Shown: positions 45,726 to 53,424 of the stretch, piece by piece
Numbering within the stretch: the first letter of the stretch is position 1
Layout of the letters: every line of letters starts with the position of its first letter
NCBI GenBank assembly: GCA_029253285.1
Contig: JAQWZU010000067.1
Span: 62,001 to 126,000, forward strand
DNA: 64,000 nt
Direction: 5' to 3'
Origin: Akkermansiaceae bacterium
GTDB taxonomy: Bacteria > Verrucomicrobiota > Verrucomicrobiia > Verrucomicrobiales > Akkermansiaceae
Translations under genes and position numbers: made by a program
The notes under the pieces: model-generated
Databases searched by the model: none
Told to the model about the DNA's origin: nothing
Seen by the model: only the letters and a program-made list of their open reading frames with translations

Positions 45726-46472
45726 TTATTTCACCGCCGCCGGACCCCAAACCTTCTGCATGAGCTTGAATCCCTTTGGGTCGTGGTCCCGGAGTTCGGC
45801 CGCCACGAAGGGATAGAAATCATTTCGATAAAGATAGGCTTCGGTGGCTTCGGCGAAATACTCCTTATGATTCGTAGCCGCGTAATGGCGCACGGTGCTT
45901 CCGGTGAAGAGCTGCACTTTCTCTAAAATCCCTTTTTCCATTGCGCCATTGTATGCCGCGAGAACATCGGGATCATTGAAGCCGAGAACCTGATCGTGAT
46001 AAGCGTGTGCCAGTTCATGGAGAATCACGGCAGGGTGCTTCAGCAATTGGTCTCTGGAAAATAAAGCCGCTGCTCTGGTAACGTGGACCTTCTTGTTGAG
46101 GCGGGGATCGTAACCGTGATCGATCAACCACTTGGCGCCGGGATGATACTGCATCGCGCTCAACTCAGGATGCTTGCGCTCTAGCCAAATCTCCATCGTC
46201 TTCATCTTTTTCAAAGGCTCTTCCGGCAGGAGAATGGCAATGCGTTGCAAATGATTGGCTAACATTTTGAGGGCCTGCTTCCCTTCTTCCCCATGTTTCC
46301 CGCCCTTCAACAGAGCTGGATCAACATGCACCGTCCATCCCTCGATATTCCTCTGCACGGGTTCGATCCAACCAATCTTTTGGGGTGCCGCGGTTTGCCC
46401 CAAGGTCATCCAAGCAAATGACAGGATAAGAAACAGCGGGGCCGTCAGACGAAAGGAACAAAAAGTGCGCAT
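45726..46472 (-). CDS. Putative secreted zinc metallopeptidase (HExxH)
   Basis: Predicted 248 aa with a signal peptide (LTAPLFLILSFAWMTLG). VILHELAHAYHDQVLG contains HExxH (HELAH), and KEYFAEATEAYLYR about 55 residues later supplies a candidate third ligand Glu, which is the gluzincin arrangement, seen also in anthrax-lethal-factor-like (ATLF-type) domains. PAVILHE preceded by a well-formed helix supports a real peptidase. It lies directly upstream of the FG-GAP gene. Substrate unknown; extracytoplasmic. Confidence 0.8.
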   Translation of the reverse strand: MRTFCSFRLTAPLFLILSFAWMTLGQTAAPQKIGWIEPVQRNIEGWTVHVDPALLKGGKHGEEGKQALKMLANHLQRIAILLPEEPLKKMKTMEIWLERKHPELSAMQYHPGAKWLIDHGYDPRLNKKVHVTRAAALFSRDQLLKHPAVILHELAHAYHDQVLGFNDPDVLAAYNGAMEKGILEKVQLFTGSTVRHYAATNHKEYFAEATEAYLYRNDFYPFVAAELRDHDPKGFKLMQKVWGPAAVK

Positions 46473-46786: not shown

Positions 46787-49495
46787 CTATTTGAGCCCCG
46801 TGACTTTCAAGGTCCCGGCTCCCCCGATATATTTCGGGTGGGTCTTGGACGAGAATGTTCCCACTCCCTGATCCTTCCCGTCGATGAAAAACGCTCCCAC
46901 GGTTTCTCCCGCATCCAGCACCAGCTTCTGCGGCGATGAGCCATTGGCTCCTTCCAGCGACAAAGTCACATCATTTGGAATCACTCCCCCTGAATCTTTC
47001 GCGAGCACGAGCGAGCAATTGCCCCCAATGACCACGTCACCTTTCCCAAGAGATCCCTTCTTGCCTCTCACCAAGACCCGGAAGGCTTGTTTCATGGAAG
47101 AGAAAGCTTCAAACCCTCCGGTAAAAGAATTGGCAGCTTCAAAAATGATGGTGTTCTTATTCACCCCGTTGATGGTCAACTTTCCGGGACCGGTGATCGC
47201 TTTGGCAAACAAACGGGTTTTCGAATGCCCACTGGTCGAAGCACCACCCCATATTTCGGCATCGCCAACCAATTCCACCGGCCCCAAATCGCAATTATGG
47301 GTTCGAAAAATGAGCCGGGCGTCATGATGGAGGACTAGCTTCGCCGGATCTTTTGGTAGGAGAGCGAGACCTTTATCGCCCCACAAAACCAACGACGCTT
47401 TTTCTCGAAGAAGCAAGGATCCGGAGAACGATGGGATCTCAGCCTCCTCCAATTGTACTGCGACTCCTCGCCCGATAATCGCATTATCATCCCCTTGAGG
47501 AAGCGTGTCATTTTGCCAATTTTCGGGCACCGCCCAGCTATTTCGATTGTTTTTGTCGCTCCGGGTCATGACCACGCCTGAGACTGTCGGCCGTAGAAGA
47601 AACTCATGCGGGGCCAAAGCCCGGGCGGTAAAACGTAATTCATCGAGAGCAAGTCGGTCCGGGTTTCCTTTCGCGCCAACTCGGAGAGGATTTACTTGAT
47701 TGATCGATAAGCCGGCATGGGAAAGTTCCTTGGCGGCCACTTGTTGACCATCCAGAAAAAGCCGCATTTCGCCAGCTCCTCCGCTGTAATCATGGTCCCA
47801 CACCACCCCAAAGTGATGCGCCTTCGAATCAGCCACCCTTACTTCTTCAGCAAGCGCCTGGGTGATTTTGCTACCTGAATCGTAAAAGAAACTCATCTGA
47901 CCCTGGGTCATCCCCCGTCCCGGGGGGCGGAGATCCAAATGCCATCCTTGTCTCCTTTTTTCCCCCGAGCGGGTTCCCAAAAGAAAGACCGGACGTTTCA
48001 AATTTCCTGCCAGAAACCAACCCTCAAAGGTAAATGACTTCTTAGCGCTTAAGACAAACTCACCACTGGGTTCGGCCTCCTGCCATACACCGATCTTGAG
48101 CGCCGAGGTGTTCTCTTTCAGATTGAGCGGAATTGGATCAGGAGCAATGGGACCAATCTTTTTTCCTTTTGCCACTAACTCTAATTCAAAAAATTTGCCG
48201 CCATCGATAAGCGGACCGTTCTCAGATTTCCCATCCATCCGCCACCAGGCTCTCAACACGGTGTCTACCGGTTTCGGTTTTGGAGGCACGGGTTTCGGAT
48301 TTGGCGTATCCACTTTAGCCGCAACGACTTTTCCCTCATTCGGATCAGGAACATCCGCTTTCATCGGAGCTTCTGGAATCCTACTGACCGGATCACTCTC
48401 CACTTCGGGAGCCATCGGTTCCGGGAGATCTCCCCTAGGCGTTTCCTCAACCCTAGCGACCTTTTTCGCTCTTCCTTTCTTAGGATTTTTCCCCTCCTCC
48501 GCTTTGTCATTTTGCACGACTGGAGCCTCCTTGGCCTCGTTCATTTTGAGATAAAGCCCAAAGCAAATCACCAAGACCGCTGCCACTGCCAGGATGATCT
48601 TGGGAGCTTTGGATGGCTTGGCACTGGCCAGCACCGGATGCGTCCCGGTCAACTGCCCCATACTGGCCACCTGCCCGGAACTAATCAAAGAAACCGAGCC
48701 CTGGCCAACCCTCATGTCCATCAGGCTACCGCCCTGGGACACCACCACTTCCTGACCCTCAACTACAAATTCGTATGTGCGTAGGAAAAACGGCCGCATT
48801 GACAGCGCGGTCGCCTCGAGATCTTTTCGGTAGGCGGGAATGTCAAATTCGACTCTTCGAAATTCCAACTCCTGCGTTTCGGTATCGTAGATCACATAGC
48901 GCGCCCGGAGATCCTCCGGATTGCGCGGCTCACCCACCGAACCCACATTGACAATATAGCGACTATCGGAATCCAGCGTGAGATCGCCGTCGGTGAATTC
49001 ATTGACCTCACCGAAAATGTCCATCTCAAAGACCTTGGGCAAATGGGTATGCCCGATGAAGGTCACAAAGTGTTTCCCGGCCTCAAAATTTCTCTGTGCA
49101 ACTTCGAGATCACTGATGTAACCGAACCTCCCTGGTTCTTCGATTTCAGCATGAACAAAAAGAACATCACCGGCTTCAATCGCCAATGGCACGGAAGACA
49201 GGAACTCTTTCCCCGCTTCGTCCAACTGACCCATCGTCCATTCGATGGCTTCCCGGGCGTGGTCATTGAAAATGGAATAATCCATCATCCCCACCGCCGC
49301 GGCATCGTGATTTCCCATCACGAAGTTTCCCGTCACCGCCCGAACAGCCTCAAGAACTTCGGCCGGCTTTGGCCCATATCCCACCACATCACCCAGACAA
49401 ACAACCTCCTCGATCTTGCACTCGCGGAAATCCGCCAGAACCGCTTCCCAGGCGGGAAAGTTGGCGTGAATGTCTGATACTATCGCGTAACGCAT
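46787..49495 (-). CDS. Metallophosphoesterase / TM / LamG-like / autotransporter-strand fusion protein
   Basis: Predicted 902 aa. Residues 1-240 are a calcineurin-like phosphoesterase with all metal motifs: SDIHANFPAW, LGDVVGYGP, GNHDAAA, HAEIEEP and GHTHLPKVF. There is no signal peptide. A single hydrophobic helix (IILAVAAVLVICFGLYL, about residues 300-318) follows, then a Pro/Lys-rich linker, a LamG/concanavalin-like domain (about 410-630) and a C-terminal beta-repeat region (about 640-902) with TGGFEAF and LVLDAGETVGAF blocks like autotransporter-associated beta strands (PF12951). The topology would be phosphoesterase in the cytosol and sugar-binding region outside. It may signal or cut nucleotides in response to surface binding. 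Confidence 0.8.
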   Translation of the reverse strand: MRYAIVSDIHANFPAWEAVLADFRECKIEEVVCLGDVVGYGPKPAEVLEAVRAVTGNFVMGNHDAAAVGMMDYSIFNDHAREAIEWTMGQLDEAGKEFLSSVPLAIEAGDVLFVHAEIEEPGRFGYISDLEVAQRNFEAGKHFVTFIGHTHLPKVFEMDIFGEVNEFTDGDLTLDSDSRYIVNVGSVGEPRNPEDLRARYVIYDTETQELEFRRVEFDIPAYRKDLEATALSMRPFFLRTYEFVVEGQEVVVSQGGSLMDMRVGQGSVSLISSGQVASMGQLTGTHPVLASAKPSKAPKIILAVAAVLVICFGLYLKMNEAKEAPVVQNDKAEEGKNPKKGRAKKVARVEETPRGDLPEPMAPEVESDPVSRIPEAPMKADVPDPNEGKVVAAKVDTPNPKPVPPKPKPVDTVLRAWWRMDGKSENGPLIDGGKFFELELVAKGKKIGPIAPDPIPLNLKENTSALKIGVWQEAEPSGEFVLSAKKSFTFEGWFLAGNLKRPVFLLGTRSGEKRRQGWHLDLRPPGRGMTQGQMSFFYDSGSKITQALAEEVRVADSKAHHFGVVWDHDYSGGAGEMRLFLDGQQVAAKELSHAGLSINQVNPLRVGAKGNPDRLALDELRFTARALAPHEFLLRPTVSGVVMTRSDKNNRNSWAVPENWQNDTLPQGDDNAIIGRGVAVQLEEAEIPSFSGSLLLREKASLVLWGDKGLALLPKDPAKLVLHHDARLIFRTHNCDLGPVELVGDAEIWGGASTSGHSKTRLFAKAITGPGKLTINGVNKNTIIFEAANSFTGGFEAFSSMKQAFRVLVRGKKGSLGKGDVVIGGNCSLVLAKDSGGVIPNDVTLSLEGANGSSPQKLVLDAGETVGAFFIDGKDQGVGTFSSKTHPKYIGGAGTLKVTGLK

Positions 49496-49567: not shown

Positions 49568-50908
49568 TCATCCCGTCAATTCCGTCATTTCTCCACTACT
49601 ATCGGCAAATTTGTCTACCGGAGCATCCACCGCGTTAAGCACTGAGACAAAGAGATTCGCAAGCGGCACCTTATTCTCACCCTCGTAAGAGTGCAGGTTT
49701 CCATGCTTGAAACCGAGCGCCTTTCCGCCGGCCACCTGAATCGGGTAATTCTTGGTGCTGTGGGAAGCGTGCGGGTGGGCCGAGCCCCAAACCACGACCG
49801 TTTGGTCGAGCATATTGCTTTCGCCTTCCGGAGTATTTCGCAAGCGCTCCAGAAAATAGGCATGCTGCTTGGCCCGCCAATTATCCCATTTTCCTGATTC
49901 AGTCGGGCGCTTGTGGGCGATGTCGTGGGTCGCTCCTTTGTAACCGAGCACGTAGTTGGCGTAATTCCACATCTCACTCCCACTGGATTGCTCGCTTTCG
50001 AGCATGAGGGTGGCGAAGCGGGTAGAATCGGTCTGGAAAGCCAGATAAAGCAAGTCATACATGCATCGGGTGTACTCCTCGGGATCCTTGTGGGAGACTT
50101 CAAGGTTTAGCCCTTTGGTATCGACATCTGGAAGTGACTCATGAGTCCACTGGCTGGTGCGTTCGACACGCTTTTCCAACGCGCGAATGGAGTCGAGATA
50201 CTCTTCCAGTTTCACCTGATCTTCTTTGCCAAGCCGACCCTGAAGCTTCTTGGAGTCGCCCATCATCAAATCGAGCACACTTGCCTCGCGCTTGAGGTCG
50301 GCGCGAACTTGTTCGATTCCTTTTCCAGCGTAGGGATTGAAGAGGCGGTTAAAAATTTCCTGCGGGCGATGCATCGACGGGATTGGACGACCGGGACCGT
50401 AATGAGAAAGCGTCTTGGCGCTGCCGTATGAACCAGTGCCACCTTCAGTGCCAAGAACAAGAGAAGCATAACGTGTCTTGTGTCCGCTCATCTTTGCCGC
50501 GAGTTGATCCACCGAGATGTTATTTGTCTTCTCCGTTCCCGACATGTCGGCACCGGTTGCAAAAACATCACCGCTGCTGTGACCACCCATTCCGACTCCG
50601 CCCGCGTGTTCGAGACCACGAAGATAACTCACCGAATTCTTCAGCGACTTAAAAGGTGATGCGGATTGATTAAACGAGAGCGGTCCAGCCTCCTTGCAGG
50701 GCCACCAGTTCCAATCGTGGTGCGAACCATCTTTGTTTTTGGGCTCGTATACTCCGTAAGCAATGTAGCTCACCACCATCCGCTTGGGCAATGCTTTGCC
50801 AGGGGTCGTCTTTCCCCACGACATTCCCTGAAGAAATGGCAGGGCCAAGGCGGCACCGCCACCCCGGATAAATTCACGTCGATCAAGATGCCAGGATTTT
50901 TGCTTCAT
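49568..50908 (-). CDS. DUF1552 secreted protein (copy 2)
   Basis: Predicted 446 aa. HLDRREFIRGGGAALALPFL is a twin-arginine signal. GMGGHSSGDVFATGADM and NNISVDQLAAKMSGH match DUF1552. Its start overlaps the stop of the upstream cytochrome-like gene by four bases (ATGA). It is the last gene of a four-gene chain. No catalytic residues can be named; the family function is unknown. Confidence 0.88.
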   Translation of the reverse strand: MKQKSWHLDRREFIRGGGAALALPFLQGMSWGKTTPGKALPKRMVVSYIAYGVYEPKNKDGSHHDWNWWPCKEAGPLSFNQSASPFKSLKNSVSYLRGLEHAGGVGMGGHSSGDVFATGADMSGTEKTNNISVDQLAAKMSGHKTRYASLVLGTEGGTGSYGSAKTLSHYGPGRPIPSMHRPQEIFNRLFNPYAGKGIEQVRADLKREASVLDLMMGDSKKLQGRLGKEDQVKLEEYLDSIRALEKRVERTSQWTHESLPDVDTKGLNLEVSHKDPEEYTRCMYDLLYLAFQTDSTRFATLMLESEQSSGSEMWNYANYVLGYKGATHDIAHKRPTESGKWDNWRAKQHAYFLERLRNTPEGESNMLDQTVVVWGSAHPHASHSTKNYPIQVAGGKALGFKHGNLHSYEGENKVPLANLFVSVLNAVDAPVDKFADSSGEMTELTG

Positions 50909-53424
50909 GGATTATTGGTAAATGTTGGGCTTTGGCAGACGGATACAATGATGTCCTGAAGTTTGTAGCCGTTTCCTTTCGCCAGTTTGAGTAATCTCTC
51001 GACTTCAAATCGATCACGATAAGTGAGCTTCCTTCCAATACTGTAGGTCAGCAACCTCCGAATGACGTTTTCAACAATCTCATCCTGACGTTCCTTAAGA
51101 AGGTATCGTTTGAGCTTCGGCATCCCGTCGACCTCAGGTCCATGAGGCACTCGCGATGAGGCATCAACTTCCTCCGTGTAGATTGACTTCAAATACTCTT
51201 GATAGCCCGCGAAGGTCTTGTCACTTTTGAGATGAAAGCCACGCACACGGACTTTCTCTTTCGGCACGAGGGGCTGGTATTTTCCGATCGCGCTGTAGCG
51301 TTCAAATGGAATCCCCCATGGATCGAGTCGCACGTGGCAATCGGCGCAGCTTTCCTGCTGCCGGTGAAGCGCGAGGAGATCTTTAATCAACACCGCTTCA
51401 TCCGCGGAATCTCCGGCCGAATCGGACAACGCCGGGACTTCCGCTGGCGGAGGTTTCACCTCGTGACCCAAAATAGCCTCACGCAACCAGACCGCCCGAT
51501 AGATCGGATGAGGAGCAGAGCCCGTGGAGTTTCCGATTAACATTGCCCCCTGGGTCAACAATCCGCCAAGGCGATGCTCTGGTTTGACTGGAATGGCACG
51601 GAGCGTTAATCCGCTCACTCCATCAACACCATAATGCGCCGCAAGCGGTTCATTGAGATAGGCAAAGTCAGAGTCGATGACATTCATTACGCTCGCGTTG
51701 GTTTTAATCAGCTCACCAACGAAGCCCACTGTCTCCTCAAGCATGTAATCACGAATGGTCGGGCGAAAGAGCTGTTCCTGACCACGTCGTTCGCCAAGGT
51801 GCACCGTATAAAGAAAGCGAGGAAAAAGATCGCGGTTGATGTTTACCGTTTTCATCTTGGCGATGCTCAACCACTGGGTGGAGAAATTCTCCACAAAACC
51901 TTCCGCGCGTTTATCCAAGAGGAGTCGTCGCGTTTGCGCTTCGATGACCGCTGAATCAGTCAGCTTCCCCGAAGCAGCGAGATCAAACAACTCTTTATCA
52001 GGCATACTCCCCCAGAGGAAATAGGAGAGCCGTGAAGCGAGTTCATACGGCTTGGTTGCGGCAGCCTGATCAATCACCGTGTGAAAAAGAAACTGCGGCG
52101 AGACGAGCACCATCGCCAAAGTTTCCCGCATGGCCTCTTCGAGAGTCTCAAATTCGGCATCGTAAATCTTGAAGACACGGTAGTAGTGGTCGACCTCATC
52201 CCTGGCCACCGGTCGCCGAAAGGCTCTCGTCATGAAACGCTTGATTACCTCGTAGGCATACTCGGCAGGTTTACTCTCGCGCAGGGATGATTCGAAAAGA
52301 ATACGCGTATGATGATCCGGCGGCCAAATCTCGCTCACGGGCGCTTCGAACTCGATCGATTCGAGGACCACCCGCGGCGCCTCCAAACTCCACGACGCAT
52401 CAAAACCACTCTTGCGATGATCGTTAAGTTCGCCGTTGTCGAAAATATTCTGAGCCGTAATGGTGATACTCGGAGGACGAACTTTATTTCGGTGCGTGCT
52501 GGATGGTTGGACCGGCACATTCTCGATCCGCCCGCGAAACTCATACTCTCCGGGATTGTCAGGAGTATTTGTCAAATGAACAACTCCCACTTCGTGGCAG
52601 ATCCCCGATCCCGAATCATGTCGGAGGTTGGTTCCCATCACCACACGAAGCGGCACCTCCTGAAAGCCGGGAGGAAGATTCCCTGACGCCTTGACGCGAA
52701 GTTTAAACTCACCGGTTTTGGGCCAACTTTTCAAGCCCATCGTTTTGTTACCCAGACCAGGTCCCTGATAGACCCCGATTTCAGCTTGGGTCAATCCTCC
52801 CTTACCGGGCTTGCCATGGTCCCATTTCGCGCTGCTCTGATGAAGCTCCGGCTTACCGGGATCGACAATGGCACTCGCCATCGCCTTGCGGGCGGCCTCC
52901 TTGTAACGAATCAATTGATCCGGCCCGATCATCATCATCTGCGCGGTATTGTTGAAATGATACGGCTTGTCCGGATCGGCGGGAAGATCCTTGGAGAGCG
53001 CGAGTTCAAAGCCCAACAGGTCTCGCATGGTATTCTGATACTCGAAGTTCGTGAGCCGCCGAGTCGTGGTCGCAACCGCAACCTTGCTCTCCTTTTCAAC
53101 GTAATGACGAAGACCCGAATCGATCCATTTCGCGACCGCTTCGCGAGATTTCGCATCCGGCTGAGGTTCGTCTTCGGGAGGCATCTCTCCGCCTTCCAAC
53201 ATCTCCAGAACCAACTCCCAGTGTTCAAGATCCCCTTCCACCATCTCACCCCGCAGAGTATGGACAGTAATATCGCCCTTGCTCTTTTGAGGGCCGTGGC
53301 AGGAAACACAATGCTCTTCAAAAAACGGCTTCACCGTCTCCTCAAACACCACCCCGTCCGCCCAGACCAACTGCGGGAAAACCAATCCCGCGGAAATCAC
53401 CAAACCCCGAATCAACCTTTCCAT
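50905..53424 (-). CDS. DUF1592-type multidomain secreted cytochrome-like protein (copy 2)
   Basis: Predicted 839 aa with a signal peptide (VISAGLVFPQLVWA). EEHCVSCHGPQKSKGD near residue 37 is a CxxCH haem motif. DUF1587 (RRLTNFEYQNTMRDLLGFEL, about 125), DUF1595, DUF1592, DUF1588 (LGGLLTQGAMLIGNSTG, PPPAEVPALSDSA, then ESCADCHVRLDPWG) and DUF1585 follow. It starts at the base where the previous gene stops (overlap of one base with the DUF1552 copy 3) and overlaps the next DUF1552 gene by four, so it is firmly coupled on both sides. Confidence 0.88.
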   Translation of the reverse strand: MERLIRGLVISAGLVFPQLVWADGVVFEETVKPFFEEHCVSCHGPQKSKGDITVHTLRGEMVEGDLEHWELVLEMLEGGEMPPEDEPQPDAKSREAVAKWIDSGLRHYVEKESKVAVATTTRRLTNFEYQNTMRDLLGFELALSKDLPADPDKPYHFNNTAQMMMIGPDQLIRYKEAARKAMASAIVDPGKPELHQSSAKWDHGKPGKGGLTQAEIGVYQGPGLGNKTMGLKSWPKTGEFKLRVKASGNLPPGFQEVPLRVVMGTNLRHDSGSGICHEVGVVHLTNTPDNPGEYEFRGRIENVPVQPSSTHRNKVRPPSITITAQNIFDNGELNDHRKSGFDASWSLEAPRVVLESIEFEAPVSEIWPPDHHTRILFESSLRESKPAEYAYEVIKRFMTRAFRRPVARDEVDHYYRVFKIYDAEFETLEEAMRETLAMVLVSPQFLFHTVIDQAAATKPYELASRLSYFLWGSMPDKELFDLAASGKLTDSAVIEAQTRRLLLDKRAEGFVENFSTQWLSIAKMKTVNINRDLFPRFLYTVHLGERRGQEQLFRPTIRDYMLEETVGFVGELIKTNASVMNVIDSDFAYLNEPLAAHYGVDGVSGLTLRAIPVKPEHRLGGLLTQGAMLIGNSTGSAPHPIYRAVWLREAILGHEVKPPPAEVPALSDSAGDSADEAVLIKDLLALHRQQESCADCHVRLDPWGIPFERYSAIGKYQPLVPKEKVRVRGFHLKSDKTFAGYQEYLKSIYTEEVDASSRVPHGPEVDGMPKLKRYLLKERQDEIVENVIRRLLTYSIGRKLTYRDRFEVERLLKLAKGNGYKLQDIIVSVCQSPTFTNNP

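Follow-up and report, generated by a model that had tools for sequence, protein, structure and literature searches.

Many bacteria possess receptor-like kinases, whereas bacterial receptor-like phosphatases are, to our knowledge, few, PstP being the standard example. PstP of Mycobacterium tuberculosis, a receptor-like Ser/Thr phosphatase, comprises a cytosolic phosphatase of ~237 aa, a juxtamembrane region, one transmembrane (TM) helix and a 191-aa ectodomain (PMC3052367), and the PASTA-type receptor Ser/Thr kinases (PknB/PrkC) comprise a cytosolic signalling enzyme, one TM helix and an envelope- or glycan-binding ectodomain (PMC6213207). The window analysed here, a stretch of 64,000 nucleotides from a marine Akkermansiaceae bacterium, encodes a protein that follows the receptor-type phosphatase plan of a cytosolic enzyme, one TM helix and an ectodomain, with an N-in topology predicted from sequence. 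This overall plan is held in common with PstP, yet PstP has a PP2C/PPM fold, which neither Pfam nor Foldseek finds in the window protein, whereas the latter is of the calcineurin type, has exchangeable lectin-like ectodomains and belongs to PVC bacteria. The combination of enzyme, one TM helix and binding ectodomain is also common to PknB/PrkC and to the kinase-TM-C-type lectin proteins of the same genome, but there the chemistry is opposite and the catalytic domain unrelated. The preliminary description of the locus knew of no named protein of this exact layout; no curated equivalog or paper for it was found among the curated families and the open-access literature searched, although the layout is not unique, since it recurs in a large family and its plan is known from PstP.

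We interpret the window protein, with a probability of roughly 0.55, as a single-pass, N-inside receptor-type phosphoesterase that is ligand-gated and built as a modular sensor. The N-terminal dinuclear metallophosphoesterase would act in the cytosol, while the TM helix and a Pro-rich spacer would hold an ectodomain of LamG and beta-rich parts within the periplasm or extending across it, there to bind an envelope or environmental glycan or a surface ligand. Ligand occupancy would set the activity of the enzyme, probably by clustering or by dimer geometry via the juxtamembrane helix, and the cytosolic substrate may be either a nucleotide messenger or phosphoproteins produced by the receptor kinases of the lineage. 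As a modular sensor, the protein would have kept its enzyme while its ectodomain was exchanged in evolution. If this is true, a calcineurin-type clade with interchangeable binding domains would represent a second, independent solution to the receptor-phosphatase problem.

Table 1. Features of the phosphoesterase gene and protein, in window coordinates.
Feature	Position	Strand	Basis or remark
Complete gene, 902 aa	46787..49495	minus	ORF call from ATG to stop, Pfam, full-length homologues
Metallophosphoesterase domain, predicted cytosolic, residues 1-222	48830..49495	minus	Metallophos_2, PDB matches, AlphaFold2, Foldseek, residue check
Juxtamembrane region, residues 223-297	48605..48829	minus	Predicted helix ~236-245; RP(F/Y)FL motif conserved in close relatives
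Single transmembrane helix, residues 297-318	48542..48607	minus	Positive charges on N-terminal side
Low-complexity Pro-rich spacer, residues 319-412	48260..48541	minus	~17% Pro, pLDDT <50
Breakpoint, approximate, residues ~400-415	48251..48298	minus	Comparison with G005 (L032)
LamG / ConA-like lectin-fold ectodomain, residues 413-633 (Pfam core 482-631)	47597..48259	minus	Pfam, Foldseek
C-terminal beta-rich (probable solenoid) domain, residues 640-902	46787..47578	minus	AlphaFold2, ectodomain-only model

From N- to C-terminus, the 902-aa protein is ordered as metallophosphoesterase, juxtamembrane region, TM helix, Pro-rich spacer, LamG domain and beta-rich C-terminus (Table 1). The start, MRYAIVSD, is conserved, and an in-frame stop lies 9 codons before the ATG (open frame of 911), too short a distance to conceal a signal peptide, in agreement with the earlier statement that none is present. 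One hydrophobic TM segment is predicted at residues 300-318, matching the single membrane helix that had been described as joining the enzyme to LamG. In a full-length AlphaFold2 model built with 43 sequences, the enzyme has a pLDDT above 90, helices span residues 236-245 (juxtamembrane) and 297-318 (TM), the spacer is disordered, the LamG region is poorly modelled and the beta-rich C-terminus is well modelled. Homologues with the same layout and 45-94% identity are encoded by most same-genus genomes and by G043, from another family of the order; an ectodomain-bearing protein is carried by 18 of the 27 same-genus genomes (the window's own counted), with some copies cut by contig ends. That two genes might have been joined by a sequencing frameshift, a danger named in the preliminary description, or by a mis-assembled chimera would accord with the draft and mostly metagenomic nature of the genomes; such an artefact is nevertheless exceedingly improbable and, for the fusion itself, refuted, as the same full-length ORF recurs both within the genus and in the out-of-family G043.

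The N-terminal domain belongs to Metallophos_2, which it matches at residues 1-207 (E 1.2e-20; 74.5 bits against a curated cut-off of 27), with every ligand of the dinuclear site present. All eight active-site residues (D8, H10, D36, N62, H63, H115, H149 and H151) are kept in 63 of the 63 TM-anchored rows examined, representing 62 distinct genes. A complete calcineurin-like phosphoesterase is thus present, as first described, and the loss of metal ligands that had been considered damaging to that description occurs in none of the rows. The closest PDB chain is 3rqz from Sphaerobacter thermophilus (E 5e-40; Foldseek TMt 0.85), followed by SapH/Spr1479 (3qfm; E 9e-10; TMt 0.73), which its PDB entry describes as an asymmetric Ap4A hydrolase and phosphodiesterase. 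The catalytic domain is common to these Metallophos_2/YfcE-like proteins, yet both are soluble enzymes of ~250 aa, devoid of TM helix or ectodomain, whereas the TM-anchored members form a clade of their own. Assignment to the YfcE subfamily (TIGR00040) fails at 33.2 bits, below the curated cut-off of 56.25, and assignment to the PPP-family Ser/Thr protein phosphatases fails on the signature GDxVDRG, which appears in 0 of the 63 TM-anchored rows; GNHE is found in 4 and GNHD in 59, including the window protein. The sequence does not favour a phosphoprotein as substrate, because SapH is an Ap4A hydrolase/phosphodiesterase and GDxVDRG is missing.

The N-terminal side of the TM helix is more positively charged than the C-terminal side in 56 of 62 members and less so in 2 (means of +2.6 and -0.4), a bias which does not amount to 62 independent tests, since the members share ancestry. 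By the charge rule and the absent signal peptide, N-in/C-out is the straightforward reading of the topology, and the N-inside orientation that had been proposed from the positive charges of the window protein is supported across the family. The phylum is diderm, and the "out" of an inner-membrane protein is the periplasm. Of the proposed joining of a cytosolic enzyme to an outside region, the N-in part therefore stands, but "outside" most likely means the periplasm; given the spacer of ~94 residues, the ectodomain may lie in or across it.

The LamG domain that had been reported is clearly recognised, as Pfam Laminin_G_3 matches residues 482-631 (E 1.8e-9; 38.3 bits against a curated cut-off of 27.6). 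In a separate ectodomain-only model, built from six sequences, confidence in the LamG part rises to moderate, and this part displays a jelly-roll fold, with pentraxins, CBM40, trans-sialidase lectin domains and neurexin LNS among the ConA-like fold matches returned by Foldseek. The C-terminal domain, mostly at pLDDT 85-97 beyond residue ~690 in the AlphaFold2 model, has no significant match among PDB profiles (best E 0.07). It forms no beta-barrel, and Pfam detects no barrel domain, so that the label "autotransporter" cannot be literal. The PATR-like repeats of the preliminary description were not recovered: a profile search of the window's own genome gives no PATR match in the gene even at E<=10, and of 11 homologues 4 match at a best E of 0.41, which is not significant, none of these being the window member.

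Relatives of the enzyme domain were sought in order-wide and phylum-wide samples, in both of which the TM-anchored members score apart from the standalone enzymes of ~250 aa. In a tree of 83 enzyme domains, with standalone enzymes from 13 phyla as comparison, the 54 fused members and the short, nested L059 occupy one side of a branch (support 100/99; 200 of 200 bootstrap trees), and by this phylogeny the TM-anchored phosphoesterases are a single-origin clade. Within the samples searched here the clade is seen only in Verrucomicrobiota, Lentisphaerota and Kiritimatiellota, its named members coming from Verrucomicrobiales, Roseibacillus, Lentisphaerae and Kiritimatiellae assemblies. The ORF of L059 stops after 308 aa and lacks a TM helix, which may reflect secondary loss or a broken frame.

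The related enzymes carry very different ectodomains, namely LamG in one to three copies, PA14, LamG together with PA14, F5/8 type C, CBM35-like (below cut-off), HpiC1-like, others, or almost none, and the annotated classes alone require four changes on the tree. An ectodomain of ~200 aa is common to Lentisphaerota and Kiritimatiellota members (L058, L060-L065, L068, L071, L072 and L075), and its alignment led to no domain assignment; the window's genome also has a PA14-bearing paralogue (L021). From these sequences, the clade is one that keeps its enzyme half and exchanges its ectodomain, a pattern to be expected of receptors. The large ectodomain might instead serve only to anchor or position a constitutively active Ap4A/nucleotide phosphodiesterase at the envelope, conveying no signal. 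SapH, the closest characterised relative, has just such an activity, and two members (L025 and L126) have the TM helix and almost no ectodomain, so anchoring alone can suffice; but a standalone relative, 37% identical, is found in the window's genome and most of its relatives, providing a soluble enzyme already, and big, fast-changing, exchanged ectodomains of binding type would be costly for a mere anchor. We consider such tethering possible, if rather doubtful.

The exchange can be followed between sibling genomes. The entire region of the window locus is ~95% identical to G002, and the flanks of the syntenic locus in G005 are 95.3% and 94.5% identical to those of the window. Over residues 1-330, the window and G005 genes have a DNA identity of 92-100% and a dS of 0.06-0.14 (0.06 for the enzyme), while beyond residue ~410 identity is ~50-70%, with third positions at 23-50% and silent sites saturated (pS 0.74). 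This jump of silent sites from near-identical to saturated indicates replacement of a segment and not faster protein evolution. The G005 ectodomain thus appears as if exchanged by recombination; a chimeric assembly is less likely, and for it a single contig would have to contain two misjoins, one of which preserves the reading frame. A donor was not found in the 27 same-genus genomes, where the closest ectodomain is 56% identical. In 17 of 17 further pairs, protein conservation of the ectodomain is below that of the cytosolic half, by 7-37 points. Such a restriction of recombinational replacement to the exposed part could also arise if phages or predators bind the ectodomain and its diversity serves to evade them, the enzyme being incidental and no ligand being sensed. 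This is improbable, as the domain classes are binding folds set over signalling-type enzymes, and phages would have no access to an ectodomain within the periplasm. For the receptor reading, natural ectodomain-swapped alleles over a near-identical enzyme would offer a ready-made experiment on ligand-to-enzyme signalling. Two genes upstream (window positions 50043-53376), by appearance of DUF1552 and DUF1587/1592 type, are missing from the otherwise syntenic G005 locus (L032).

A link to kinases is provided by L024 (G053:C95, 2563-6666), a 1367-aa ORF in which a phosphoesterase, a Ser/Thr kinase (E 1.4e-43), a TM helix and LamG domains are combined, the kinase lying between enzyme and TM helix and being of PknB type by NCBIfam (2.8e-75). 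This fusion speaks for the receptor reading, although it is a single case. The window's genome yields ten kinase matches, and three of the five kinase ORFs scanned (L153, L154 and L155) have a kinase-TM-C-type lectin arrangement, a mirror image of the window protein. Both the window's genome and G101 encode receptor-like Ser/Thr kinases with C-type-lectin ectodomains (L153, L154, L155 and L159). A narrower version of the receptor reading would make the window protein a phosphatase specialised in phosphoproteins, undoing the action of the lectin-receptor kinases in its own cell. The union of kinase and phosphoesterase in the single chain of L024 and the kinase-TM-lectin proteins of the same genome speak for it, but the fusion stands alone, the PPP signature is missing and no kinase gene adjoins the phosphoesterase gene in the window; we judge it unlikely.

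Returning to the ligand-gated receptor phosphoesterase, a wider and tentative proposal is that Verrucomicrobiota, Lentisphaerota and Kiritimatiellota possess an undescribed receptor phosphoesterase class which, with the lectin receptor kinases, would make up a two-sided glycan-sensing phosphorylation network, with ectodomain cassettes that homologous recombination would swap at the Pro-rich spacer.

Gene context differs among the members. In seven same-genus genomes (L033, L036-L039, L041 and L042) the start of the next gene overlaps the phosphoesterase stop by 11 nt, the overlapping gene encoding an Amidohydro_2 / alpha-beta hydrolase that begins with a hydrophobic leader, and in some of them sulfatase or carbohydrate-esterase genes lie nearby; this context speaks for the receptor reading. 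The 11-nt coupling to this hydrolase was not found at the window locus. Across the wider clade no conserved operon partner was found and the neighbours vary, which counts against the receptor reading, and the substrate is not readable from context. The neighbourhood of the window gene is common to G002 and partly to G005; the genes upstream are presumably of DUF1552 type and cytochrome/DUF1587-1592 type, judged by characteristic family features. Downstream, at 45726-46472 on the minus strand, lies a small putative metallopeptidase gene (best zinc-metallopeptidase-like match E 1e-4, below cut-off), which is conserved in G002 and G005.
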